From: Bacilli bacterium
GTDB lineage: Bacteria; Bacillota_I; Bacilli_A; RF39; UBA660
DNA: 49,889 nt
Direction: 5' to 3'
Assembly: GCA_017527675.1 (NCBI GenBank)
Contig: JAFXPU010000021.1
Location: 1 to 49,889, forward strand
In this document: piece by piece, positions 184 through 20,863 of the stretch
Layout of the letters: each line of letters opens with the position of its first letter
Numbering within the stretch: the stretch's first letter is position 1
Notes under the pieces: generated by a model
What the model saw: the letters and a program-made list of their open reading frames with translations, nothing else
Told to the model about the DNA's origin: nothing
Databases searched by the model: none
Position numbers and translations under genes: made by a program

Positions 184-212
184 TTGACTTTCAAACAAAT
201 GTTTGATATATT
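184..212 (+). promoter_or_regulatory. Sigma-A-type promoter of the ruvA-tdk-ruvB operon
   Basis: TTGACT (184-189) and TATATT (207-212) are separated by 17 bases and lie just ahead of the AAGGTGGT ribosome site of ruvA (225-232). Confidence 0.7.
191..206. promoter_or_regulatory. Candidate LexA (SOS) operator inside the ruvA promoter
   Basis: TCAAAC-AAAT-GTTTGA is a perfect 6-base inverted repeat with a 4-base centre, filling the spacer between the -35 and -10 boxes. It has the architecture of the Gram-positive SOS box (CGAAC-N4-GTTCG) with G-to-A changes in both arms. ruvAB is a classic SOS operon, so LexA control is the natural reading. The mapping to LexA is inference. Confidence 0.5.
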
Positions 213-235
213 TTATATAGTGTGAAGGTGGTATT

Positions 236-787
236 GTGTACGAATATATTGAGGGTATTATTAAGGATATTGAAAGTACTTATGTAGTATTAGATAATAA
301 TGGTATTGGTTACTTAATAAATGTTGCTAATCCCTATTCTTATAATTTAAATGATAAAATTAAAATATATATTTATCAACAAATAAGAGAAGATGAAAAT
401 AGTTTATATGGTTTTAAAGATAAAGAAGAAAAAGAATTATTCTTAAAACTAATTAATGTTAAAGGTTTAGGACCTAAGATGGCATTACCTTTATTTGCAA
501 CTGGTTCAACTGATGGTATTAAGGATGCTATTGAAAGAGAAAATATTTTATATTTAAAGAAATTTCCTAAAATTGGTGATAAAGTAGCTCGCCAAATTAT
601 TCTTGATTTAAAAGGAAAATTAGTTGAAAATAAAGTTAGCAATGTTAAAACTAATGATGAATTAACCGAAGCTTTAAAAGGATTGGGTTATAAACCACAA
701 GACATTAATAAAATTATTCCATCTATTAAAGCAGATGATCCAATTGAAATTCAAATTAAAGAAGCTTTAAAATTATTATTGAAGTAG
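236..787 (+). CDS. ruvA: Holliday junction branch migration protein RuvA
   Basis: The 183-residue product matches RuvA in length and order: an N-terminal OB-fold opening MYEYIEGIIKDIESTYVVL, then the helix-hairpin-helix pair (VKGLGPKMAL near residue 77 and FPKIGDKVARQIILDLKGKL near 110) that grips junction DNA, and a C-terminal three-helix domain that contacts RuvB. RuvA tetramers hold four-way junctions while RuvB rings pump DNA through. The start is GTG at 236, chosen from AAGGTGGT at 225-232. ruvB follows in the same operon after an inserted tdk gene. The promoter carries an SOS-box-like palindrome. Confidence 0.97.
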   Translation: MYEYIEGIIKDIESTYVVLDNNGIGYLINVANPYSYNLNDKIKIYIYQQIREDENSLYGFKDKEEKELFLKLINVKGLGPKMALPLFATGSTDGIKDAIERENILYLKKFPKIGDKVARQIILDLKGKLVENKVSNVKTNDELTEALKGLGYKPQDINKIIPSIKADDPIEIQIKEALKLLLK

Positions 788-5691: not shown

Positions 5692-6555
5692 TTATATTTT
5701 TTCTAGTTCTTTTATACTTTTTTCTGGTGTAGGTAGATTATCATTGTTGTCTATGATCTTTTTTACCTCTTTTAGTTTATTTTCAAGCAGTTTTTTATCA
5801 ATTAATTTTAATTTATATTCGGCTATCATCGTTTGTGTCATACTGCTATCCAAAGAATACTCAACTATATCTTTATCTTTAGAACTGCATAATATAATTC
5901 CTACACTAGGATTTTCATTTTCTTTTTTTATATCTCTGTCTAAGGCCTTTAAATATAAATTCATTTTTCCTAAATATTCTGCTTTAAATTCACCTAATTT
6001 TAATTCAAATGCAACTAAACAAGATAATTCTCGATTATAAAACAATAAATCAATATAAAAATCATGTTTTCCTATTTGTATTCTATATTCATCCCCTATA
6101 AAAGTAAAATCTTTGCCAACTTCTAAGATAAAGTTTTTAATATTATTAATAATTGATTTTCTTAAATCGTTTTCAGAAAAATTGTTTGGTAAATCCAAAA
6201 ATTCTAAGCTATATATATCTAATATTCTGGTATTAGGATAATCATCTTCATCAATTGTTTTTTTGTAAGTTGGTAACTGATTGCCATCTGATAGCAAATA
6301 TCTTTCATAATATGATGACGATATTTGTCTATCTAATTCCCTTTTAGAATAGTTGTTTTTAATAGCTAATTTAAGGTAGAAATGTCGTTCTTCTTGCGAT
6401 TTAGCTCCGCTTATTATTAATAAATTATTTGTCCAAGATATTTGCGTCACCAGTGGTGTCGCAATTTTATCATTTTTGTAAATTTTATAAAATTGAATCA
6501 TTCGCTCTATATTTCTTTTAGTAAAGCCTTTGATATTTTGGTAATTGTTTTTCAT
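5692..6555 (-). CDS. DUF1016 (YhcG-type) PD-(D/E)XK nuclease, cut off from its N-terminus by a nonsense codon
   Basis: The intact 287-codon frame begins within the DUF1016 N-terminal domain (NIKGFTKRNIERMIQFYKIY, the usual GFSRRNLYRMRQFY region). It continues into the nuclease domain: DFYIDLLFYNRELSCLVAFELKLGEFKAEYLGKMNLYL shows the D...E-L-K catalytic spacing, in two blocks here only split for reading: DFYIDLLFYNREL and then VAFELKLGEF. VGIILCSSKD and IVEYSL follow. Reading upstream in the same frame restores the missing N-terminus up to an ATG at 6735, interrupted only by TAA at 6622-6624. The gene is therefore probably a recent pseudogene, or makes a shortened protein by internal initiation at 6555, which has no clear ribosome site. 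It is one of three minus-strand genes in the window. Confidence 0.75.
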   Translation of the reverse strand: MKNNYQNIKGFTKRNIERMIQFYKIYKNDKIATPLVTQISWTNNLLIISGAKSQEERHFYLKLAIKNNYSKRELDRQISSSYYERYLLSDGNQLPTYKKTIDEDDYPNTRILDIYSLEFLDLPNNFSENDLRKSIINNIKNFILEVGKDFTFIGDEYRIQIGKHDFYIDLLFYNRELSCLVAFELKLGEFKAEYLGKMNLYLKALDRDIKKENENPSVGIILCSSKDKDIVEYSLDSSMTQTMIAEYKLKLIDKKLLENKLKEVKKIIDNNDNLPTPEKSIKELEKI

Positions 6556-7049: not shown

Positions 7050-8087
7050 ATGCAAACAGAAGATTTTAATTATGAATTACCAGAAGAATTAATAGCTCAA
7101 ACACCTCTTGAAAATAGAAGTGATTCTAAGCTATTAATTTTAAATAAAGATAGTGGTAAAACTAAACATGAAATATTTAAAAATATTATTAATTATTTAA
7201 ATCCAGGAGATGTTTTAGTTTTAAATGATACGAAGGTTATTCCAGCTCGTTTAATAGGTGAAAAAGAAGATACGAAAGCTCATATTGAAATTCTTTTATT
7301 AAATGATTTAGGTTCTGATAATTGGGAATGTTTATCACGTCCTCAAAAAAGATTAAAAGTAGGTACTATTGTCACTTTTGGTGATGGTTTATTAAAAGCT
7401 GAAATAACGGAAATACTAGAAGATGGTATTTGCCATATTAAATTAATCTATAAAGGTATTTTAATGGAAATATTGGATAAATTAGGTGAAATGCCTCTTC
7501 CACCTTATATTCATGCTAAATTAAAAGAAAAAGACCGTTATAATACAGTCTATGCTAAAATTGAAGGTTCTGCGGCAGCTCCAACAGCTGGACTTCATTT
7601 TACTAAAGAATTACTTAGTGATATTGAAAAAAAAGGTGTTATTGTAACTTATGTAACCTTACATGTAGGACTAGGGACTTTTAGACCAGTTGAGGTTGAT
7701 AATATATTAGAACATAAAATGCATTCAGAATTTTATATGATGAGTAAAACTACTGCTGATATTTTAAATAAAGCTAAATTAGAAAATAGAAGAATTATTT
7801 CTGTTGGTACAACTAGTTGTCGTACTTTGGAATCTGTAATGCAAAAATATGGTGAATTTAGGGAGTGTTCAGGTAATACAGATATCTTTATATATCCAGG
7901 ATATGAATTTAAAGCTATAGATTGTTTAATAACTAACTTCCATTTACCAAAATCTACTTTAGTAATGTTAGTTAGTGCTTTAGCTAAAAAAGAAAATATT
8001 TTAGCAGCATATAAGGAAGCTATTGCTAATAAATATCGATTCTTTTCTTTTGGTGATTCTATGTTTATAACCAATGAAGATATTTAG
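7050..8087 (+). CDS. queA: S-adenosylmethionine:tRNA ribosyltransferase-isomerase
   Basis: This 345-residue enzyme moves the ribosyl part of SAM to preQ1 in tRNA, forming epoxyqueuosine at the wobble position. The start [19 protein letters not shown], the block [11 protein letters not shown] (near residue 59), [10 protein letters not shown] (near 177) and [11 protein letters not shown]-like [13 protein letters not shown] (near 202) are all family signatures, ending in [15 protein letters not shown]. In many Firmicutes queA directly follows ruvAB; here several genes separate them on the same strand, perhaps a remnant of that order. No tgt gene follows within the window. Length and motifs are normal. 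Confidence 0.96.
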
Positions 8088-8095
8088 GAGGCTTT

Positions 8096-9205
8096 ATGAG
8101 TGAAGAGTTAGAAAAAGCTTATAAGGAAATACAAGTTCAAAATATTGTTAGTTTAGAAAGAGATATTTTAGAAAAAGAAGAACTAATTAACGAGCTTTTA
8201 ACTGATTTTTCTTTTAAGTTTTTATATGATGATGAAGGAAACTATGATCCAAATAGAATTACTATCTTAAAACAAATAATGGATTTATATGGTGATACTT
8301 ATAAAGATTATGAAATGCCTAAATATAAAAAAGTATTTAAAGCATCAGCATCATGCCGTTATGCTAAAGAATTTTTAGCTGAATTAGGCCCTAAATATTT
8401 AAATACCTTAGAACAGGCTGAGGCTGATAATACAGTTTTATATTATACATATCGTGATGTTATTAATTATGATTTAATTGGAATATCCCATTTTTATTAT
8501 CAAGATGGTAAAAATTACATTGGTATATTATGTGATTTTAATGCTGCTGATATCTATTCCATTATTCATGAAACAGTTCATGCAACTAATGCTTATGAAA
8601 AAGAAATGGGAATGTATGAACCAGAAGATATGGATGATAAATCTTTCTATACCTGGGATTTATTTACTGAGACTATGTCATATTTTGCTACTCGTTTAGC
8701 TCGTATGTACTTTAAAGATAAATATCCTGATGATAAAGAATTACCAAAAGAATACTATGAAGAAGAAGATGGCTTTAATAGAGTATATTACAAAACTGAA
8801 TTTTTACTTAAACTATTAGATATTTATCTTGAAAAAGGTCAAGTAACTAATCGTGATTTAGTTGAAATTTTATCTGGTGAAGATGATGATATGGTTTTAA
8901 GAGCCTACGATCAATTAGTAGAATTATATGATCGTGAATATTTTGTTATTATAAATAATATATCTTATTTATTAGGTAATATTGTAGTTAAACATATTTT
9001 AGCTAATAATGATTATAATAGTGCTAAACAAATATTTTATGATATGAATCAAATGGTTAAAGAAGGTAATTCTGTTACAGACATCTTTAAATATCTTGAT
9101 CTAGATGTTGAAGAATTAGATAAATGGTTTGTATCTGTTAAAACTAAAGAACTAAATAAACTAGGTGATTATAATGTTAAAAGACCTAAATATTTTTTTT
9201 GCTAA
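8096..9205 (+). CDS. HExxH metallopeptidase-like protein, first of three tandem paralogues
   Basis: I cannot name the 369-residue family. It has IIHETVHATN (zinc-binding HExxH at residues 158-162) and, 20 residues after the second histidine, FTETMSYFAT whose glutamate is well placed as a third zinc ligand. That spacing is the thermolysin-like (gluzincin) arrangement. There is no signal peptide or membrane segment, so it should be cytoplasmic. The conserved end pattern FKYLDLDVEELDKWF is shared with the downstream copies. The gene begins nine bases after queA with AGGAGGC, and its last 32 bases overlap the start of the second copy in another frame. Confidence 0.75.
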   Translation: MSEELEKAYKEIQVQNIVSLERDILEKEELINELLTDFSFKFLYDDEGNYDPNRITILKQIMDLYGDTYKDYEMPKYKKVFKASASCRYAKEFLAELGPKYLNTLEQAEADNTVLYYTYRDVINYDLIGISHFYYQDGKNYIGILCDFNAADIYSIIHETVHATNAYEKEMGMYEPEDMDDKSFYTWDLFTETMSYFATRLARMYFKDKYPDDKELPKEYYEEEDGFNRVYYKTEFLLKLLDIYLEKGQVTNRDLVEILSGEDDDMVLRAYDQLVELYDREYFVIINNISYLLGNIVVKHILANNDYNSAKQIFYDMNQMVKEGNSVTDIFKYLDLDVEELDKWFVSVKTKELNKLGDYNVKRPKYFFC

Positions 9206-9266
9206 ATATGTTGATGAGTATTCCTTAAAATATCATCCAGAATTAATTAATTATGTTAGAAAATAA
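9174..9266 (+). pseudogene. N-terminal segment of the second HExxH paralogue, separated by a frameshift
   Basis: ATG at 9174 is preceded by AGGTGATT and opens a 30-codon frame (MLKDLNIFFAKYVDEYSLKY and on) that ends at TAA 9264-9266. This matches the position and style of the paralogues' N-termini. The main body of the second copy lies in the -1 frame from 9263 onward. Slipping back one base on the run AAAA (9260-9263) just before the stop would join them. It may be a mutation, an assembly error or programmed frameshifting. Confidence 0.55.
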
Positions 9267-9271
9267 CGGAT

Positions 9272-10114
9272 TTGGTATTAGAAAATCCCCCAATATTTGA
9301 AGAAAAAGAATATTTATTAGATGTTAAATTACAAACTAGTCAAAAATTAGCTTTTGAATTTTTAGAAACTATAGGGGTTAAATTTAATGATTTAATGTTA
9401 ACTGATTTAGGAACTTTAAATCTTAATTTTAAAAATTATATAGATTTAAAAGATAATGAATTAATGTCTTATTCAGAATATAAGGATGGAAGCTTAGATG
9501 TTAATATAGTTTATTATAATGATCTATCTGATTGTTATACGATTATTCATGAACTATTACATGCTTTAAATACGGTTATTGAAGATGATTTATCTAAGAA
9601 GTATCGTCGTGATATATTGACTGAAACAATATCTTTGTTAGGTACTGTAGAAGCTGAAAAATATTTTTTGAAAACTAGATTAAATGATGAATTTACGATT
9701 AATAAAATGGATGATTATTATGGTATTTATGAAAATGCTTTAAAGACTAAAGATACTTTAAATTTATTAGATACTTATTTAGAAAAGGGTCAAATAGATG
9801 ATAATGATTTAAGATATGTTGATGAAGATACTGTAAATGAAATCCTAACTTTAGAAGAGATTCAAATACCTTTTTATGAAAGATATATATTAGCTTATGT
9901 ATTAGTTAATTATATAGAAGCTAATTACAATGGTAAAGATATCTTAATAAGATTAATGGATATGATTAAAAATAATACTTTAGAAGAAATATTTAGTTAC
10001 TTAAATCTTGATTTTAATATTATTAAAGTCAACAATAATATAGAATTTATAACTGATATAAGTGATAATAGTTTAGAAAGATTAAGAAAAGCTTTAAATA
10101 GTAAAACAAAATAG
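9272..10114 (+). CDS. HExxH metallopeptidase-like protein, second paralogue (main frame)
   Basis: The open frame gives 280 residues with IIHELLHALN (H93, E94, H97) and LTETISLLGT (E118), the same putative zinc site as its neighbours, and the end pattern FSYLNLDF. The only in-frame start is TTG at 9272 without a ribosome site. A frame with a proper start and ribosome site begins at 9174 and stops at 9264. The natural protein is therefore probably about 313 residues, made by joining 9174-9263 to this frame. It lacks part of the loop between the N-terminal region and the active site found in the first copy. Function unknown. Confidence 0.65.
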   Translation: MVLENPPIFEEKEYLLDVKLQTSQKLAFEFLETIGVKFNDLMLTDLGTLNLNFKNYIDLKDNELMSYSEYKDGSLDVNIVYYNDLSDCYTIIHELLHALNTVIEDDLSKKYRRDILTETISLLGTVEAEKYFLKTRLNDEFTINKMDDYYGIYENALKTKDTLNLLDTYLEKGQIDDNDLRYVDEDTVNEILTLEEIQIPFYERYILAYVLVNYIEANYNGKDILIRLMDMIKNNTLEEIFSYLNLDFNIIKVNNNIEFITDISDNSLERLRKALNSKTK

Positions 10115-10128
10115 AAAGGAGTATATAT

Positions 10129-11148
10129 ATGCATAAGAATTTAAAAGAAATAAATAATAGAATTGATAAATATGTTAATTATTTCTTAAGAGATAATAAT
10201 TATGAAGCACATATTGAAAGATTAAATCATTTTAAATCTTTTACTAAAATTCTTATAGATAATATTCCTTTTGTGGATGATGTAAGTTATAAAAACAGAG
10301 TTTCAAAAGAAGAATGTATTAATTATGCATATGAATTTTTAGAATCTATATCTCCTAAATATGGTTTATATTTATTTAAAAAATTAGATAATAATCAAAT
10401 TGAATTTGTAACTCTAAATGAGGCATATCATAAGAATTTACCATTATGTTCTTATTATGAAAATGGATTTATATATATAGTCTTAACAAACGATATAAGC
10501 GATACATATGATATTATTCATGAACTTATGCATGATACTAATAATATAGAAGATCTAGATAATCCTAATTTTAATCCTGAAACAAGAGATTATTTTACTG
10601 AGACAATATCTTTTTTAGCAACAACAATTGCTCAAGATTTTTTTGCTAAAAAATATCCAAATAATAAAGAATTTAAATATGATATCAACTCCGATTATTA
10701 TGGCTTATATAAAAGAGTAGCTGGTATTGATTATGTTTTACAATTAATAGATGCTTATTTAATAAATAATAATATAAATCAAAATGATATAGAATTAATT
10801 GAAAAAGATAAATCTCCTTTTTATATTAATTCAGCAGAAGAATATATAGATGAAGCTTTAAACTATGAAGCAGTATATGATGAAGATTCTTTTGATTTAT
10901 TATTTAATGAAGGTTATTTACTTGCAGGATTACTTACTAACTATATTTTAAATACATATCCTGAGTATGAAGATAGAGTAAAAGTATTAAAAGATTTAAA
11001 TGAATTAATTATGGTAAAAGATTATAAAGCAATATTTAATTATTTAGATTTAGATGTTTATGAATTAGATGATTGGTTTATTAATTTAACTGATGATTCG
11101 TTAGCTAAATTAGAAAAATCATTTAAAGAAGAGAGTAAAAAAATATAA
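10129..11148 (+). CDS. HExxH metallopeptidase-like protein, third paralogue
   Basis: The 339-residue product repeats the family pattern: IIHELMHDTNN (H131, E132, H135), FTETISFLAT (E158) 23 residues on, and a C-terminal FNYLDLDVYELDDWF block nearly identical in style to the first copy. Outside these blocks the three copies have diverged widely, especially in the first 60 residues. They are ancient duplicates rather than recent copies. GAAAGGAG precedes the ATG. A terminator follows directly, so the three-gene run, possibly led by queA, ends here. It lacks secretion signals. No substrate can be proposed. Confidence 0.72.
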   Translation: MHKNLKEINNRIDKYVNYFLRDNNYEAHIERLNHFKSFTKILIDNIPFVDDVSYKNRVSKEECINYAYEFLESISPKYGLYLFKKLDNNQIEFVTLNEAYHKNLPLCSYYENGFIYIVLTNDISDTYDIIHELMHDTNNIEDLDNPNFNPETRDYFTETISFLATTIAQDFFAKKYPNNKEFKYDINSDYYGLYKRVAGIDYVLQLIDAYLINNNINQNDIELIEKDKSPFYINSAEEYIDEALNYEAVYDEDSFDLLFNEGYLLAGLLTNYILNTYPEYEDRVKVLKDLNELIMVKDYKAIFNYLDLDVYELDDWFINLTDDSLAKLEKSFKEESKKI

Positions 11149-11217: not shown

Positions 11218-12039
11218 TTAAATATTTACTGTTTCAATGCTAGCTAGAAATTTTATTATTTTATTTAAGACTTCATCTATATTTTTGTTAAGCCAATTAT
11301 ATTTTGGGTTATTTAAATTATATTTATAATATTTTGAATTTACTATTTTTGAAAAATCGTTAACTAAGTCTTTAATATTATTTATTTGTAAAGTTTTATC
11401 GTCATATATTAATATTTTAAAACATTTTTCTAAATTTTCTTTATCTAATAAATCATTATCTATTAAATAGTAAAAATCAAATATATCTTTATATCTAGTA
11501 GATCTAATATTAAATTTTAGTAATGATTTTAATTTTTCAACAAATATTTGTTCTGGAGAATTGATTAATAAATTAGCCTCTAAATTAATTATATTAAAAT
11601 TAAATATATGTTGTACTTGTTCCAATTCGAATAAGCTGTGAACTCCAATGTCTAACTTTGTGTTTATTTCATTATTAAATGTATCTTTAATTTTTAAAAA
11701 CACTCTTTTACCACTATAATCTTGGTGATGTAATGTTATAATATCATCAATTATTTCAAAACTTATATTTTTGATAGATTTATTTAACTCATTAATAAAC
11801 TGCCTAATGGAATTATCGTCTAATGAATATTTAATAAAATCTAAATCTAAATCAAGCGTTGCTCTACGAATATCGTTAGATAGATTATGCATAACAACTC
11901 CACCTTTTATAGTAATGTTTTTAAAATATTTACTATTTGAAATTGCTGTTAATACCAAATCCTGACATACTTTAGCTGATGCATCATCATCAGTATATCC
12001 TGCCTTAATGTATTTTTGTATTAACTTTTGCAAATTCAT
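11218..12039 (-). CDS. AbiEii-type nucleotidyltransferase toxin
   Basis: The 273-residue protein has the AbiEii signature blocks: ITIKGGVVMHNL followed by RRATLDLDLDF (residues 45-70, nucleotidyltransferase motif), TKLDIGVH (second acidic motif), SPEQIFVEKLKSLL and TRYKDIFDFYYL. AbiE systems are type IV toxin-antitoxin pairs in which the toxin is a nucleotidyltransferase that can modify tRNA and cause abortive phage infection. I place the start at ATG 12039, preceded by AGGAGG inside the antitoxin gene, rather than TTG three bases earlier. TGATG links the two genes, so they are translationally coupled. All recognisable motifs are intact. Confidence 0.85.
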   Translation of the reverse strand: MNLQKLIQKYIKAGYTDDDASAKVCQDLVLTAISNSKYFKNITIKGGVVMHNLSNDIRRATLDLDLDFIKYSLDDNSIRQFINELNKSIKNISFEIIDDIITLHHQDYSGKRVFLKIKDTFNNEINTKLDIGVHSLFELEQVQHIFNFNIINLEANLLINSPEQIFVEKLKSLLKFNIRSTRYKDIFDFYYLIDNDLLDKENLEKCFKILIYDDKTLQINNIKDLVNDFSKIVNSKYYKYNLNNPKYNWLNKNIDEVLNKIIKFLASIETVNI

Positions 12040-12581
12040 CAAAAAACCTCCTTTTGTATTTTTAAAAATATATCAATATTATTTTTATAATAACCTAAAT
12101 AACTAGATAATTTGTTCATATCAATTTTATTACTTATTAATCTATAATTATTAATTATTTCTTTATAGTAATCAAATGGAATTTTTTTATTGTTTTTAAT
12201 AAGTTCAATTAGCATTTTTTCCTTGTCATAAATTTTTATACTCGTTCCATTAACCTTTATAGTTGTTATTCCTAATTTTAATTTATCTTCAGGTACGTAT
12301 ATTTGTTTAACTTTATTATTGGTTATTTTAGCTGCTTTTCTATGAGTAGCAAGAAAATAATATTGGGGAATAATGTCTGTTAAATTATGATAATAGTATG
12401 CACTATCAGAAGTAAATACGGCATTTGGATATTTCTTATTCAAAACTAATAAATAATTAATAAATTCGTTTTCAGAGTACAATCCAGTATCAATTTTAAA
12501 AATTTTTTTATCTTTAATTGCTTTATTTAACTTGTAATTTGTTTTATATTTGGAAATTATTTCTTTATAATTGTAAATCAT
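12039..12581 (-). CDS. AbiEi-type antitoxin and autorepressor
   Basis: The 180-residue protein precedes the toxin gene, as antitoxins of AbiE pairs do. Its N-terminal part, with KDKKIFKIDTGLYSENEF, resembles the winged-helix end of AbiEi proteins; TSDSAYYYHNLTDIIP and FLATHRKAAKI are typical of the middle. The ATG at 12581 has GGTG six bases upstream and is preferred to the TTG at 12593. Upstream lies a near-consensus promoter overlapped by an inverted repeat, fitting autoregulation. The family call rests on partial motifs and gene order. Confidence 0.72.
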   Translation of the reverse strand: MIYNYKEIISKYKTNYKLNKAIKDKKIFKIDTGLYSENEFINYLLVLNKKYPNAVFTSDSAYYYHNLTDIIPQYYFLATHRKAAKITNNKVKQIYVPEDKLKLGITTIKVNGTSIKIYDKEKMLIELIKNNKKIPFDYYKEIINNYRLISNKIDMNKLSSYLGYYKNNIDIFLKIQKEVF

Positions 12582-12598
12582 TTCAATCACCAAAAATT

Positions 12599-12831: not shown

Positions 12832-13710
12832 ATGAAATTAATATGTATTGTAGGACCAACTGGAGTTGGTAAAACTAAACTAAGTATTATGTTAGCTAAA
12901 TATTTAGATGCTGATATTTTAAATGCTGATTCTACTCAAGTATATAAAGAATTAAATATAGCTACGGCTAAAATATCTGAAGAAGAAAAAGAAGGCATTA
13001 AACATTATCTTTTAGATATAAAAAATATAGATGAAGATTATACCGTTTTTGATTATCAAAAAGATGGTAGACAAGTAATAGATGAACATATTAAAAATAA
13101 TAAAGATTTAATAATAGTAGGTGGAACTGGTTTATATATAAAAGCTTTGTTATATGATTATCAATTTAATAATTTAGATAATTCTAATCAATATGAAGAA
13201 TTATCTAATGAAGAATTATATCAAAAACTACTTAAATTAGATCCTAATACCGATATTCATATTAATAATAGAAAAAGAGTTATAAAAGCTATTAATTACT
13301 TTTTAGCTAATAATAAACCTTATTCTGAAAAAGAAAAAACTGATAAATTACTATATGATGTATCTTTTATAGGCTTAACTTGCCCAAGAGATATATTATA
13401 TAAAAATATTGATTTAAGAGTCGATAATATGTTTAAGCAAGGTTTAGAAAAAGAAGCTTTAAATATCTATAAAACAGGTATAAGAACTAAAGCTGTATTA
13501 ACACCTATAGGCTATAAAGAACTATTTTCATATTTTGATAAAGAAATATCTTTAGATGATGCTAAAGAATTAATAAAAAGAAGAAGTAGACATTATGCTA
13601 AAAGACAATATACGTGGTTTTTAAATCAAATGAAAGTTACTTGGTTTAATGTAGATTTTACTAATTTTAATAATACTTATAATGAAATAATTAAATACCT
13701 AAATATTTAA
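12832..13710 (+). CDS. miaA: tRNA dimethylallyltransferase
   Basis: The 292-residue enzyme adds the isopentenyl group to A37 of tRNAs reading UNN codons. It shows P-loop GPTGVGKT (residues 7-14), NADSTQVYKELNIATAK (DSxQVY-type, near 32), VGGTGLYIKALL (near 100) and the C-terminal RRSRHYAKRQYTWF tRNA-binding helix. Length is slightly short but normal for low-GC relatives. GAAGGA precedes the ATG. A weak promoter (TTGAAT at 12765, TTTAAT at 12789, 18-base spacer) lies in the 190-base AT-rich gap upstream. It forms the left boundary of the large secretion locus. Confidence 0.95.
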   Translation: MKLICIVGPTGVGKTKLSIMLAKYLDADILNADSTQVYKELNIATAKISEEEKEGIKHYLLDIKNIDEDYTVFDYQKDGRQVIDEHIKNNKDLIIVGGTGLYIKALLYDYQFNNLDNSNQYEELSNEELYQKLLKLDPNTDIHINNRKRVIKAINYFLANNKPYSEKEKTDKLLYDVSFIGLTCPRDILYKNIDLRVDNMFKQGLEKEALNIYKTGIRTKAVLTPIGYKELFSYFDKEISLDDAKELIKRRSRHYAKRQYTWFLNQMKVTWFNVDFTNFNNTYNEIIKYLNI

Positions 13711-14726: not shown

Positions 14727-17700
14727 ATGAAAAAAAATATATTTACCACATTATTATTTTTAACCGTTTTGTTTATAATTAATAATTGTAATGCAGCTAA
14801 CACAGATTATATTATTGGTAGTGGAGAAAAAATAAATACAGCAACTATTACTAGTACTGGAACAACAAAAACATTTAAAGATACCTATAAGGTCGACAAT
14901 GGATATATTGTTGAAGATAATCAATACTATCAAATAAAATTAAATGGTCAAGATGCATTATGCCTTGACCATCAAAAACCATATGGTTTTGGAGATTTTT
15001 ATTATGCTCCTATGACTGTAAATAATTTGGCAGTTAGAAAGATATATTCGTATGCAACTAAAGGCCCAGATGAAAACTTTTTTGCTCAAATTCTGCTATG
15101 GTATCTTTCAGATCAAGGCTTGCTATATGAAGATAATCTTGTAAAGGAACATGGCTCTATAAATTATTTTAATACTATTCGTAACAATATTGCTGATTTC
15201 ACAGCATATTATATGCTTGTTGCAAATGGTAGTTTTGATCAATATGCAAAATATCTTGATGAGGATTATAAATGTTTAAATATTGATAATGAAAAATTAT
15301 ATAAAGTATGTGTAAATATAAAACAAAAGCCAAGTTTTTATGATAAAACTTACTATCTTTTAAATGAACTGGTACCAAATGCTACAAGTGTTTTTAATGC
15401 AAATAAAAGTCAAATTTTGACTAAGATTTCAGATATTGAAGAAGGCAATGCTACAAGTGTTTATTTATATAAACCAAGTAATGCTCAAAAACAAAATATA
15501 ATTTCTGCTAATCCAAATGATTTAAATGAAACATGTGTAAGTGTTCTTCGTGCATATTCTTTAAAAGAAAATGGTAACGTTAAAAGTTCAGCAGAAGCTG
15601 TAAAATATTTAAAAGAGCATTTTCCAACTCAATTTAATGAAAAAGATGGTACGTGTGGGCAACCTAATGATGCATGCTATGTTAAAATAGTACAACCAAC
15701 TTCATATAGATTTCCTGCACGTTTAGCTAACCGTAAAGCGGGAATAGGTGCACGTGCTTCTTATACAGGAACAATTAAGAAAATAATTGGTACTTATTAT
15801 GCTTGCGCTGGTAAAACTTGTACTACTGAAGAACCAAAGAAAGAAGATTATAAGACATGTAAATTGTTTAAAGAAGCAATATCTGATCCAAAAAATGTTA
15901 TATGTACAGATGATGGTAATAAAATAACTTACTTGAAATGTAAACCTGGTGGTGGCGGTGGTGGATCTAAAACATGTAAGGAATTGCTTCCATCATATTC
16001 TGGTGTACAAACAAATAAAAATTTTGAAGAATTTAAGAAAAAAATAACTGATCCTGAAAAAGCTACTCATTTAGCTGATGGTACTATTTCATGTGAACCT
16101 TGCAAACCTGATGTTAAAGTACCACCTGCAATTTGTGATGTTCAAGGAAAAGTTCGTTCAAACTTTACTTTAAGTGATGCTGTTGATGAGTATGGCAATC
16201 GTAATGAAACATGCTATCATAATAATATATCATATCAAATAGATGGTAAACCAGCTAGGGCATCAATAGATGAAAATTTTTCTGAGTCACCTTATTGTGA
16301 CGTTTATTGTTGGGAATCTGTATTTGTAGATTTACCAAACTCACCAAGCGCAATGGGAAATATTATTGCTGGTTCATTATTCTATTGGGGAATTAATCAA
16401 CCAGAACATATTTTTGCAGAATTGCAAACTAGGCGTGTTTGTTGGACAAAACCTGACTATGATACATTTACAGATGTTTGGAATACAAATGAAAATGCAA
16501 TATCTCAAGCATATGCTGATTATATGGCAGAGGTCGAATATAATAAACAAGGCGATAGTGATGTAACGGTAGATAACGATAAATGTTGCATTGGTAAAGA
16601 GGTACCACCTGAACCTGATACATGGAGTGATCCTGTAAATAGTTGCGGTAGCGGTGATTTTGCTTGTGCCTGCAATAACGGATGCGGATGTGATGGAAAT
16701 AATAATGCACCTTGTTCATATATTGATGGTGCTTGGAGACATAAAAATAGTGGTAGAGCAGGATATTGTGATGGTACAGAAGGTAAAACATATAAATTAC
16801 CATCAAAAGATTATACAATTCCTGGTACAACTATAAAAGGTACATCTAATAGTAAAACATCTGGTTGTACAACAAGTAAACCAAGTGCAGATGATTTAAA
16901 AGATACTAAAGAAGAAGAAAAAAGAAAGGCTGCTGTTGCGAGAAAAGTTGGAGATCGATATACTTTAAGAGAACAACTTCTTGTTTGCCAAAGTAAGAAA
17001 AATATCAATGAATCAAGTATGTATGATTATTCTAAAGCATCAATTAAATTTACAACAGATACTAAAACTAATTTAGGATTATCTAGATATGGCGTTGGGG
17101 ATGCTAATTTAGTTGGTGATGTTAAACCAGGTACTGTAAAAGTTGAAACAAATTCGGCTAAAGATGCAACTGCCAAAACATTCAATTGCTCCGGTATAAA
17201 TGGTGAAATTGGTAATTCAACTGATCCAGATAACAGTGTAAGTAATATTTGTCAAGGACAAACATATATAAGCGTAGATAACTACGAAACTAAAGGTTAT
17301 GAATGGGATTATAGTGGCGTGTATGCATTTTATTATCCAGACGATTATTTATTCTTATCTAAAAAAATAACTGCTACAACAACAAATGATGTTAATGATC
17401 AATTTAAACCAACTGGATACGAAAAAGAAAAGAATTTATATTATATCGAAGGATATGGATTCCCAGTTGGATTTACAACAACTGAAGGATATTTCTTTGC
17501 AAAAGTTGAAATATCTGGATTAGGACATAAAGGACATTTTGATGATATATTAAATCAAACTGACTCTAAAGAAAAATATGGTTATAATTTCAAAGATGGT
17601 TATAGTTGCCCATATTATGTTTATAATCCATTATATCAACATCAATGTCATTATGAATGTGATCCAAATACTATGAAATGTAAAAAAACTGCTGATTCAC

Positions 17701-18224
17701 CAGCTGATTGTTGCGATCCGCAAACTACTACTTGTGATAAAGGTAAATTAGCTGTTGTATATCGTTTAATTGATATGGCCGAAGGAAACACTAAGAAAAT
17801 TTTCCCAAGTATTGATGGTGATGGTAGAAATCCTGGTAGCAACTGGGCATCTTTTATCAACTTGAAGGGAACAGCATATAAAAATATAACAACAACAGGA
17901 GTTATTTATGATAATACACCAATGTACACAATTGAATTAACTCCAACAAATATTGGTAAGATTAGAAAAGATAACACTGAATTAAGGAAAAATAATAAGG
18001 ATCCATATACAAGTTATACAGATGCTAAAGATAAGTTAAAAATTACTTGTGATGAATATCAAGATGAAACTAAGTCTTGCGTATCAAATTATATTACAAC
18101 ATTAATGAATGGAAATTATAAAGTAATAACTGGTGGTTCATTTAAAATAACTAATGAATCTCAAAGACTTAAAGCATTAAGAAACTATAAAACTTGTTAT
18201 GATAATTCTAATCCAAATTGTTAA
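14727..18224 (+). CDS. Large secreted cysteine-rich protein with an N-terminal thioester (adhesin) domain
   Basis: The 1165-residue protein begins with a signal peptide ending near residue 24 (NCNAAN). Residues 60-130 resemble thioester domains of Gram-positive adhesins: ALCLDHQKP carries the C-x-D motif (Cys79), followed by a kIYSYA segment and FAQILLWYLSDQG, where Gln121 fits the (T)Q-x-x-x-W motif. In that family the Cys and Gln side chains form an internal thioester that bonds covalently to host targets. The rest has over 40 cysteines, including a dense cluster (CACNNGCGC, near residue 649) and two related K-x-C-rich repeats around 380-460 joined by a six-glycine linker. There is no LPXTG motif or C-terminal membrane anchor, so retention must depend on partners, perhaps the pilus made downstream. 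A terminator follows. Confidence 0.7.
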   Translation: MKKNIFTTLLFLTVLFIINNCNAANTDYIIGSGEKINTATITSTGTTKTFKDTYKVDNGYIVEDNQYYQIKLNGQDALCLDHQKPYGFGDFYYAPMTVNNLAVRKIYSYATKGPDENFFAQILLWYLSDQGLLYEDNLVKEHGSINYFNTIRNNIADFTAYYMLVANGSFDQYAKYLDEDYKCLNIDNEKLYKVCVNIKQKPSFYDKTYYLLNELVPNATSVFNANKSQILTKISDIEEGNATSVYLYKPSNAQKQNIISANPNDLNETCVSVLRAYSLKENGNVKSSAEAVKYLKEHFPTQFNEKDGTCGQPNDACYVKIVQPTSYRFPARLANRKAGIGARASYTGTIKKIIGTYYACAGKTCTTEEPKKEDYKTCKLFKEAISDPKNVICTDDGNKITYLKCKPGGGGGGSKTCKELLPSYSGVQTNKNFEEFKKKITDPEKATHLADGTISCEPCKPDVKVPPAICDVQGKVRSNFTLSDAVDEYGNRNETCYHNNISYQIDGKPARASIDENFSESPYCDVYCWESVFVDLPNSPSAMGNIIAGSLFYWGINQPEHIFAELQTRRVCWTKPDYDTFTDVWNTNENAISQAYADYMAEVEYNKQGDSDVTVDNDKCCIGKEVPPEPDTWSDPVNSCGSGDFACACNNGCGCDGNNNAPCSYIDGAWRHKNSGRAGYCDGTEGKTYKLPSKDYTIPGTTIKGTSNSKTSGCTTSKPSADDLKDTKEEEKRKAAVARKVGDRYTLREQLLVCQSKKNINESSMYDYSKASIKFTTDTKTNLGLSRYGVGDANLVGDVKPGTVKVETNSAKDATAKTFNCSGINGEIGNSTDPDNSVSNICQGQTYISVDNYETKGYEWDYSGVYAFYYPDDYLFLSKKITATTTNDVNDQFKPTGYEKEKNLYYIEGYGFPVGFTTTEGYFFAKVEISGLGHKGHFDDILNQTDSKEKYGYNFKDGYSCPYYVYNPLYQHQCHYECDPNTMKCKKTADSPADCCDPQTTTCDKGKLAVVYRLIDMAEGNTKKIFPSIDGDGRNPGSNWASFINLKGTAYKNITTTGVIYDNTPMYTIELTPTNIGKIRKDNTELRKNNKDPYTSYTDAKDKLKITCDEYQDETKSCVSNYITTLMNGNYKVITGGSFKITNESQRLKALRNYKTCYDNSNPNC

Positions 18225-18803: not shown

Positions 18804-19640
18804 ATGAATAATTTTATGATGTCAATGAAAAGATTCTTTTCAAACAAAAATGTTGTTACAATAATTGGTGTAGTTATTGTGCTTGCTTTATTATATTGGG
18901 AATATAATAGCAAAATTACGAAAGCTGTAAATCCAACTAGGGTTCCAGTTGCAGCTTCAGATTTATTACCACAACAAGAAATTACAAATACTGATGTTGT
19001 ATGGATTGACGTACCAAGTGTTGCTATAGATAAAGATGCTTTAACAAATTCAAGTTCTATCGTTGGTAAATATGTTGGTGTTAATTCTATGATTCCAAAA
19101 GGAAGTATGTTCTATAAAAGTGCAATTGTAGAAAAAAGTGATTTACCAGGCAACTGGTTAACTGAGTTAAAGGAAGACGAAATTCCAGCATACATTAAAG
19201 TTGATATGGTAACAACTTATAGTAACTCTATTGAACCTGATGATTATGTTGATGTATGGATGAAAGCTGAAGATGAAGAAGGCTTAGTAATGTTTGGTAA
19301 ACTTATTGAAAATATCAAAATTGTTGCTGTTAAAGATTCAAGTGGACAAGATGTATTCAAAAGTTCAAATGAAGTTGGTACTCCAGCATTCTTATACTAT
19401 GGTCTAGAATCAGATTACTTTGTAATGTTAATGAAAGCTCCATACATTGATGGCGTTGAATTAGCAATAATTCCACATGGTGGTGCTGTTCCTAAAATGG
19501 GTGATGTAGAAGTTGCCAGTGATTACTTAAGAGACTATATTGATGCTAGTACATTAGCAATCCCTGAAAATGAAGATAACGGTATCGACGTAACTGATAA
19601 AGATAAAAAAGATAAAGAAGACAAAAAGGAAAATAATTAA
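18804..19640 (+). CDS. cpaB: CpaB/RcpC-like pilus assembly protein with SAF domain
   Basis: The 278-residue protein has one N-terminal membrane helix (residues 18-32), then an SAF domain beginning VPVAASDLLPQQEITNTDVV and continuing through VGKYVGVNSMIPKGSMF, followed by an RcpC-like segment (PAYIKVDMVTT and YVDVWMKAEDE). The C-terminal 25 residues are almost all Asp, Lys and Glu. CpaB/RcpC proteins belong to Tad pilus systems and sit between membrane and cell surface; SAF domains bind carbohydrate. It directly precedes the ATPase gene with a one-base overlap of stop and start, the expected Tad order. Confidence 0.82.
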   Translation: MNNFMMSMKRFFSNKNVVTIIGVVIVLALLYWEYNSKITKAVNPTRVPVAASDLLPQQEITNTDVVWIDVPSVAIDKDALTNSSSIVGKYVGVNSMIPKGSMFYKSAIVEKSDLPGNWLTELKEDEIPAYIKVDMVTTYSNSIEPDDYVDVWMKAEDEEGLVMFGKLIENIKIVAVKDSSGQDVFKSSNEVGTPAFLYYGLESDYFVMLMKAPYIDGVELAIIPHGGAVPKMGDVEVASDYLRDYIDASTLAIPENEDNGIDVTDKDKKDKEDKKENN

Positions 19641-20863
19641 TGGAAGAAAATATTTTTGATCAAGTCGACTTTGGCCCATTACAAGAATATCTTGATAATG
19701 ATGATGTTACCGATATTTCTTATAGTAATGGTGGTCAACTTTGGTTAAAAACTTTATCACATGGTATTTTTAGAATTGAAAATCCGTTAGTTAATAATAT
19801 TTTCATGGAAAAGTTAGCCTTTCAATGTGCTAACGTTGTTGGTCACAGTTTTAACGCTGCCCATCCATTTCTAGACTCAGAATCTGCCGAGTTACGTATG
19901 AACTTCGTACATGATTCAATAGCTCGTAATGGTATTGCATGCGTTATTCGTAAAACTCCAGCAAAAATTAGACTTGAAAAGGGAAAATTATTAGAAGAAA
20001 AATATGTTACAGAAGATATTCATGATTTACTTATGAAATGCGTTGAAGGACACTGTAACATAATAGTTTGTGGAGAAACTGGTTCTGGTAAAACTGAGTT
20101 TGTTAAATATCTAGCTTCTCATACAAAAGAAAATGAAAAAATAATTACTATCGAGGATACATTGGAACTTCACCTTGATAGAATTTATCCTACACGTGAT
20201 ATAGTAGCAATGAAAACAAATAACATTGCATCATATTCTGATGTTCTTGTTACCTGCATGCGTCAGAACCCAAAATGGATATTACTATCAGAGGTTCGTA
20301 GTGCTGAGGCTGTTATGGCTGTACGTAACTCTATATCATCTGGACACTACATTTTATCAACAATACATGCAGATAAAGCAACTTCTATTCCTAACCGTAT
20401 GTACTCACTACTTGAAACAAATCAAGATATAGCTCAGTTCTTGAAGTCTATATATCGTTATATTCAAATTGGTGTATATATAAGAGGTTATCAAGATAAA
20501 GAAACTCATCGTTTCATTCGTGAAATTGCTGAAGTTTGTGAATTCTATGTAACTGAAAATAATGATGCAAAATATAATATTTTATATCGTAAAACACCAG
20601 ATGGTAAGGTAACAATGCGTAATCCAAGTTCTTATTTACTTGATTATTTGGAAGCACAAGGCGTTGAATTACCAGAACATTTAAAGAATATTGCTAATAG
20701 TGAAGAGGCATATGAACCTGGCGTTGATGCAATTGAAGAAATGCAAAATCAAAAGTCGGAATTAGAAATTGCCTTTGAAGAGGAAAATAATAAAGAAGAA
20801 AATGCTGATAATAATAGTACTAGTGCAAGTACTAATAATAGTCAGCAAATAATATTTGAATAG
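19640..20863 (+). CDS. cpaF: CpaF/TadA-type secretion ATPase
   Basis: The 407-residue cytoplasmic ATPase powers pilus extrusion. It shows an N-terminal domain with DNDDVTDISYSNGGQLWL, Walker A GETGSGKT (residues 145-152), the Asp box IITIEDTLELHL (near 168), Walker B-like PKWILLSEVRSAEA (211-224; families usually read GEVRG, here SEVRS) and the His box STIHADKA (240-247). These place it in the TadA/VirB11/GspE superfamily, TadA branch. The last 45 residues are an acidic, Asn/Ser-rich tail. Platform genes tadB and tadC follow, completing the core motor. The locus has no separate VirB11, so this ATPase might also serve the T4SS half. Confidence 0.92.
   Translation: MEENIFDQVDFGPLQEYLDNDDVTDISYSNGGQLWLKTLSHGIFRIENPLVNNIFMEKLAFQCANVVGHSFNAAHPFLDSESAELRMNFVHDSIARNGIACVIRKTPAKIRLEKGKLLEEKYVTEDIHDLLMKCVEGHCNIIVCGETGSGKTEFVKYLASHTKENEKIITIEDTLELHLDRIYPTRDIVAMKTNNIASYSDVLVTCMRQNPKWILLSEVRSAEAVMAVRNSISSGHYILSTIHADKATSIPNRMYSLLETNQDIAQFLKSIYRYIQIGVYIRGYQDKETHRFIREIAEVCEFYVTENNDAKYNILYRKTPDGKVTMRNPSSYLLDYLEAQGVELPEHLKNIANSEEAYEPGVDAIEEMQNQKSELEIAFEEENNKEENADNNSTSASTNNSQQIIFE

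Follow-up and report, generated by a model that had tools for sequence, protein, structure and literature searches.

Three tandem genes of an uncultured member of the Bacilli code for short proteins that are the zinc-carrying C-terminal half of peptidase family M3, the family of oligoendopeptidase F (PepF). The genes, named here p1, p2 and p3, lie in a window of 49,889 nucleotides, which is the whole stretch of DNA that was analysed (GenBank assembly GCA_017527675.1, contig JAFXPU010000021.1, forward strand; GTDB lineage Bacillota_I, Bacilli_A, RF39, UBA660). The family is unnamed by Pfam and NCBIfam, yet it is known by structure as M3. Overall, the three genes are probably best explained as a lineage-specific triplication of a half-size cytoplasmic peptidase derived from a PepF-type M3 enzyme. 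A natural half-size M3 protein with an intact zinc site would reveal how far catalysis, and the restriction to short peptides described for at least one M3 enzyme, thimet oligopeptidase, depend on the missing half and on a lost histidine and tyrosine. In addition, these proteins represent a fast-evolving gene family of uncultured Bacilli that both libraries leave without annotation. The genes are laid out as follows.

8096..9205, + strand: p1, a short M3-like gluzincin of 369 amino acids; starts 8 nt past queA, with AGGAGG upstream.
9272..10114, + strand: p2, a short M3-like gluzincin of 280 amino acids if read from TTG; the frame is open from 9260 and the start is uncertain.
10129..11148, + strand: p3, a short M3-like gluzincin of 339 amino acids; GAAAGGAG lies upstream.

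The three proteins are mutual homologues, with 29.8–30.9% identity over 272–305 columns (BLASTP E 7e-18 to 4e-30), which bears out the initial annotation of three tandem, widely diverged HExxH open reading frames (ORFs). The motifs IIHExxH and TETxS and the C-terminal block IFxYLxLD are common to all three, as that annotation had also stated. Its placement of a glutamate 20–23 residues after the second histidine holds for p2 (21 residues) and p3 (23 residues), but not for p1, where 30 residues were counted on the sequence. The residues of the predicted zinc site and its surroundings are listed below; numbers of the type Tyr525 are those of the PepF encoded in the same genome.

8567..8581, + strand: p1 zinc motif HETVH (His158, Glu159, His162), in invariant columns of alignment A7.
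8669..8671, + strand: p1 Glu192, placed by alignment as the third zinc ligand; the column is invariant in alignment A4.
8966..8968, + strand: p1 Tyr291, counterpart of M3 Tyr525, near-invariant in A7.
9548..9562, + strand: p2 zinc motif HELLH, placed by alignments.
9623..9625, + strand: p2 third-ligand glutamate, placed by alignments.
10519..10533, + strand: p3 zinc motif HELMH (His131, Glu132, His135), aligned to PepF His389, Glu390 and His393.
10600..10602, + strand: p3 Glu158, third zinc ligand as judged from its alignment to PepF Glu417, present in 60/60 short forms.
10915..10917, + strand: p3 Tyr263, counterpart of M3 Tyr525; tyrosine in 53/60 short forms and in 21/21 M3 proteins.

None of the three proteins matched a Pfam or NCBIfam model at the curated cut-off, and matches to PHROGs were weak (best E 0.07). 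When 60 short forms were compared with 21 full-length M3 proteins by hhalign, a probability of 99.1 and an E-value of 4.3e-19 were obtained, with short-form columns 50–334 falling on columns 306–598 of the M3 alignment led by the own-genome PepF. The solved PepF structure 2qr4 was matched by sequence profile over positions 56–331 (E 6.7e-12). AlphaFold2 models were made for p3 (predicted local distance difference test score, pLDDT, 92.1; predicted template modelling score, pTM, 0.91) and p1 (pLDDT 87.9, pTM 0.88). The best VIA match of the p3 model was 2h1j_A, an oligoendopeptidase F (Z 20.0, root-mean-square deviation (rmsd) 4.2, 305/339 residues aligned, chain 189..556), and that of the p1 model was 3ahm_A, Pz peptidase A (Z 19.2, rmsd 4.5, 330/369 residues aligned). 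VIA ranks 1–6 for p1 were all M3, four M3 entries scored Z 19.1–20.0 with p3, and Foldseek also ranked M3 first for p3. From these structural matches, the 2qr4 profile match and the hhalign span, the short forms are recognized as the zinc-carrying half of M3; descent from M3 together with a gluzincin-type site is almost certain. The initial annotation had called the family unknown, which is correct for Pfam and NCBIfam but not at the level of structure, and the idea of a new, unrelated fold was rejected, as both hhalign and the VIA searches of the p1 and p3 models gave M3.

Between ~190 (structure alignment) and ~300 (profile alignment) N-terminal residues of M3 are missing from the short forms, and PF08439, which describes the M3 N-terminal region, matched none of the 60 members at E<=0.01. 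A split M3 enzyme was considered and rejected: no separate N-terminal half exceeded the PF08439 cut-off in 40 genomes, weaker matches existing, some of them in frames of 41–188 amino acids. Three longer forms with N-terminal extensions (L093–L095; lengths of 437, 439 and 499 amino acids) were rejected as evolutionary intermediates, the extensions having no clear M3 match by E-values computed on a 4-sequence set. Pfam M32 models likewise matched none of the 60 members at E<=0.01. TIGR02289 (M3_not_pepF) was weakly matched by 1/60 (best E 2e-7) and TIGR02290 (M3_fam_3) by 2/60 (best E 1.5e-5); neither matched p1, p2 or p3 at E<=1. No paper on short M3 forms was found among the matches listed in a search of open-licence literature.

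Residue counts rest on a single MAFFT merge of the 60 short forms with the 21 M3 proteins. His389, Glu390, His393 and Glu417 are kept in 60/60 short forms, and the corresponding p3 residues are the only invariant columns among the 60 diverse relatives of alignment A4, a count that is partly circular because members beyond the first 36 were drawn from an HExxH-filtered list. Alignment A4 excludes fragments, forms of more than 385 amino acids (L093–L095), the short ORFs of L085 (255 amino acids) and L089 (245 amino acids) and the full-length M3 set. Without the HExxH filter, the motif was present in 68/70 distinct short frames (<450 amino acids, profile E 1e-5 or better), a set in which fragments of M3 genes from other families, interrupted by TGA, are also counted; the two frames lacking the motif (L111 and L132) are fragments of this kind. 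With the glutamate on the zinc-ligand column of M3, the proteins are predicted to be zinc peptidases of the HExxH+E type, as first proposed, and neither a fold without a zinc site nor a glutamate remote from the histidines was seen in the p1 and p3 comparisons. Outside the zinc site, the Tyr525 column holds tyrosine in 53/60 short forms and the Gly528 column glycine in 49/60 (alanine in p3); the same Tyr-x-x-Gly was placed on the M3 one by two further alignments (hhalign and 2qr4). A hydrophobic N-terminus (a 19-residue stretch, beginning no later than residue 40, that reaches Kyte-Doolittle 1.6) was found in 0/60 members, and the same value was reached anywhere in the protein by 2/60, neither of them among p1, p2 and p3. 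The proteins therefore look cytoplasmic, as had been suggested from their lack of a secretion signal.

The distribution of the short forms is narrow. A profile of the three proteins matched at E 0.01 or better in 44/386 genomes of the same taxonomic family, although the weakest frames need not be relatives, and one match (L031) is a full-length M3 oligoendopeptidase (Pfam PF01432 E 4.2e-38). A first scan of the genome contigs with A1 gave no match. With a wider profile, the own genome (assembly 1.13 Mb, 88.6% complete) was found to carry p1–p3 and two short copies on contig C9, hence five, as well as a separate full-length PepF of ~600 amino acids on contig C17. The C9 genes form a second tandem pair, of another subfamily (L123, G000:C9, 3103–5165, - strand), and adjoin a gene that by eye resembles DNA polymerase III alpha. 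Counting frames of <450 amino acids, interrupted copies included but full-length M3, whether whole or cut, excluded, at least one short form is present in 16/37 genomes of the family, the own genome's five being the most, and in 0/23 genomes of the class that belong to other families. In searches of the class (395 genomes) and phylum (344 genomes), the matches listed from outside the family were full-length (~577–668 amino acids) or TGA-read-through frames, except for two in the class search (G668, 463 amino acids; G723, 448 amino acids) that may be cut by contig ends. Among the matches listed from all these searches, short forms appeared in a single taxonomic family. A scan of 84,980 species with two short patterns of one subfamily, which distant members would escape, yielded nine titled records, named as Bacilli, Lactobacillales, Bacillales, Erysipelotrichaceae or Firmicutes metagenome-assembled genomes, some with animal-gut names.

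In all nine titled relatives (9/9) queA directly precedes the short-form genes and miaA follows them, both recognized by motif, with one short-form copy in 4/9 and two in 5/9; these relatives were chosen for similarity to one subfamily, and the count covers this locus and not copies elsewhere in their genomes. In a FastTree phylogeny p1, p2 and p3 form one clade (support 0.999), to which the queA-locus copies of other genomes are nearest (0.663). Support elsewhere inside the tree varies, and in some relatives the second copy falls in another subfamily. The triplication and strong divergence noted in the initial annotation are supported, with three genes here compared with one or two at the relatives' locus, and p1–p3 appear from their sequences to be a lineage-specific triplication in a fast-evolving multicopy family. 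The ratio of non-synonymous to synonymous substitution rates (dN/dS) of the first short-form gene was below 1 in 10/10 pairs of relatives' copies (0.26–0.75) and in all 10 pairs exceeded those of queA (0.14–0.27), miaA (0.17–0.34) and ruvB (0.04–0.17). These values were computed with a Nei-Gojobori script on five titled loci of relatives and do not include p1–p3 themselves. Elsewhere, paralogues stand in varied gene surroundings, with no constant partner seen when neighbours were named by eye. A phage origin was rejected: p3 had no phage match, no viral contig carried the p3 patterns, none was confirmed for the A6 subfamily, and the best match in a viral structure library had E 0.048. A defence system was also rejected, since PADLOC gave 2 weak matches, to one member each of 60, and none in p3.

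Several observations, besides the partial circularity of the invariant columns, weigh against a functional half-size M3 peptidase. PF01432, the M3 model itself, was matched at E<=0.01 by 2/60 members, and the best E of 0.00017 corresponds to 21.5 bits, under the curated cut-off of 27 bits. The Foldseek E-values were modest (4.2e-4 and 9.1e-4) and the superposition was poor. Mostly helical models can score Z 14 without kinship, and two M3 entries reached only Z 15.8 and 15.6 with p3, hardly exceeding ACE2 (15.4) and an M32 enzyme (15.2). M32 carboxypeptidases (Z 13.7–15.2) and the M2 enzymes ACE and ACE2 (Z 11.7–15.4), which among the matches listed share the fold class of p3, score under the four best M3 entries but level with these two weakest ones. 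At the level of single residues, the glycine of HExGH (Gly392) is found in 2/60 short forms versus 21/21 M3 proteins, and Glu424, seven residues beyond the third ligand, is kept in 52/60 but is threonine in p1, p2 and p3. His515 is present in 1/60 and Tyr521 in 6/60, both being 21/21 in M3; the alignment is gap-rich near His515, with 10/60 members gapped at that column. An interrupted copy occurs in 6/16 genomes with short forms (own p2, G010, G013, G015, G030 and G033), which may partly reflect assembly error. His396 has also been largely replaced (1/60, with asparagine in 45, versus 21/21 in M3).

Compared with known enzymes, the short forms share with the M3B proteins PepF (2qr4, 2h1j) and Pz peptidase A (3ahm) the fold of the C-terminal half, the HExxH motif with its glutamate, the Tyr525 and Gly528 columns and the C-terminal block. 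Unlike M3B PepF, they measure 280–382 amino acids instead of ~600, and the N-terminal residues, the HExGH glycine, His515 and Tyr521 are absent or mostly lost. Thimet oligopeptidase (M3A) belongs by name to the same peptidase family, and its His600 is presumably, by motif spacing, the counterpart of His515 of the own PepF. Thimet oligopeptidase is described as a zinc HExxH enzyme (PMC5494303) and as restricted by its structure to peptides, with an optimum of 8–12 residues, and not proteins (PMC7072564). Its His600 is reported to affect activity strongly, and the equivalent residues of related enzymes to approach the zinc in the closed state (PMC9266445). By a comparison made without direct alignment, a residue that matters in thimet oligopeptidase is thus presumably lost in most short forms.

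A mechanism can be proposed in which the two histidines and the downstream glutamate would hold the metal, presumably zinc, while the glutamate of HExxH would activate water. In M3 the N-terminal half, absent here, helps the enzyme to close around the substrate. From the loss of His515 and Tyr521, the role of His600 and the size limit of thimet oligopeptidase, we infer that catalysis would depend on Tyr263, which is kept, would take place in a cleft more open than that of M3, and would stabilise the transition state in another way. The proteins may hydrolyse peptides or flexible protein segments in the cytoplasm, and the paralogues could have drifted to different substrates, as the initial annotation had suggested. 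Judged by sequence, an active peptidase is the likely outcome; however, because two residues invariant in M3 have been lost, peptidase activity may be altered or absent. A bolder and rather doubtful extension is that a new peptidase subfamily arose when an M3 oligopeptidase shed its substrate-gating half together with two residues invariant in the C-terminal part. An enzyme confined by size to peptides would in this way have become an intracellular protease with an open cleft that acts on proteins, and its genes would then have multiplied and diversified within a single family of Bacilli through rapid gain and loss.

These likelihoods are judgements and those of the different mechanisms overlap. 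Ordinary peptide salvage, in which several loosely specific oligopeptidases digest imported peptides in a small-genome bacterium and the missing half is of little consequence, is possible and somewhat less doubtful than the new protease subfamily. It would fit a 1.13 Mb assembly that also encodes a full PepF, the varied surroundings of the paralogues, and selection on the relatives' copies that is purifying but weaker than on their neighbours. The loss of His515 and Tyr521 would be odd, however, for a plain oligopeptidase, and no peptide-transport gene was recognized alongside, the neighbours having been named by eye and not by library. That same loss is what would suggest zinc-binding pseudo-peptidases, in which peptide-bond cleavage has gone and the metal site persists for a structural role, for binding or for a different hydrolytic reaction, the more so as His515 would by motif spacing correspond to His600 of thimet oligopeptidase. 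That histidine is reported to be important for activity (PMC9266445). Such a role is unlikely, since the general-base glutamate, unneeded for metal binding, is kept in the whole, partly HExxH-picked, set and Tyr525 in most of it.

Still less can be said for functionless, decaying remnants of PepF. The interrupted frames, a possible frameshift in p2 and the faster evolution of relatives' copies than of their neighbours could be read in this way, but the invariant zinc and catalytic columns, the dN/dS values of 10/10 pairs and the intact p1 and p3 genes, each with a ribosome-binding-like site, make it very improbable. The initial annotation had offered a multi-subunit enzyme as one meaning of the triplication, and the adjacent, co-directional arrangement of p1–p3 would suit a single hetero-oligomeric enzyme. 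This is equally improbable and was not upheld: relatives carry one copy or two at the queA-miaA locus, p1–p3 are one clade, and the 40 genomes gave no free-standing M3 N-terminal half over the cut-off. A triplicated half-size M3 peptidase is retained as the most probable account.

The start of p2 deserves separate treatment, and involves one further frame.

9174..9266, + strand: 30-codon ORF running from ATG 9174 to TAA 9264 in a different frame, a candidate for the severed 5' part of p2; it begins within the 3' end of p1.

The reading frame of p2 is likely to be broken near its start, because the family similarity of p2 starts at profile position 32, exactly where the open frame starts (9260), and the length of the 30-codon ORF fits the 31 profile positions missing from p2. 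AGGTG precedes its ATG. Taken by itself, the 30-residue product of this ORF has no significant match to the family profile (0.7 bits), for which reason p2 may instead be a shorter gene starting at TTG 9272.

The genes that anchor the locus are the following.

7050..8087, + strand: queA, upstream gene and locus anchor (NCBIfam queA E 3e-144).
12832..13710, + strand: miaA, downstream locus anchor in relatives (TIGR00174 E 2.6e-76).

The start of p3 lies 14 nt after the end of p2, and purine-rich, ribosome-binding-like sites precede p1 and p3. A promoter scan gave 62 promoter-like sites versus 64.3 expected, and a terminator scan gave 2 terminator-like sites versus 0.7 expected, the latter two both within queA. 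Between p3 and miaA lies a gene for an AbiEii-type nucleotidyltransferase toxin (11218–12593, - strand; PF08843 E 3.7e-22), with an overlapping ORF upstream of it in the antitoxin position that has no Pfam match; none of the 9 titled relatives has this insertion between the short forms and miaA. Further downstream, a 1165-amino acid ORF without a Pfam match at E 1e-5 (14727–18224, + strand) precedes a type II/IV secretion ATPase gene (19640–20863). Upstream of queA and on the opposite strand, a YhcG/DUF1016-type PDDEXK nuclease is encoded (5692–6555, - strand; PF06250 E 7e-53).

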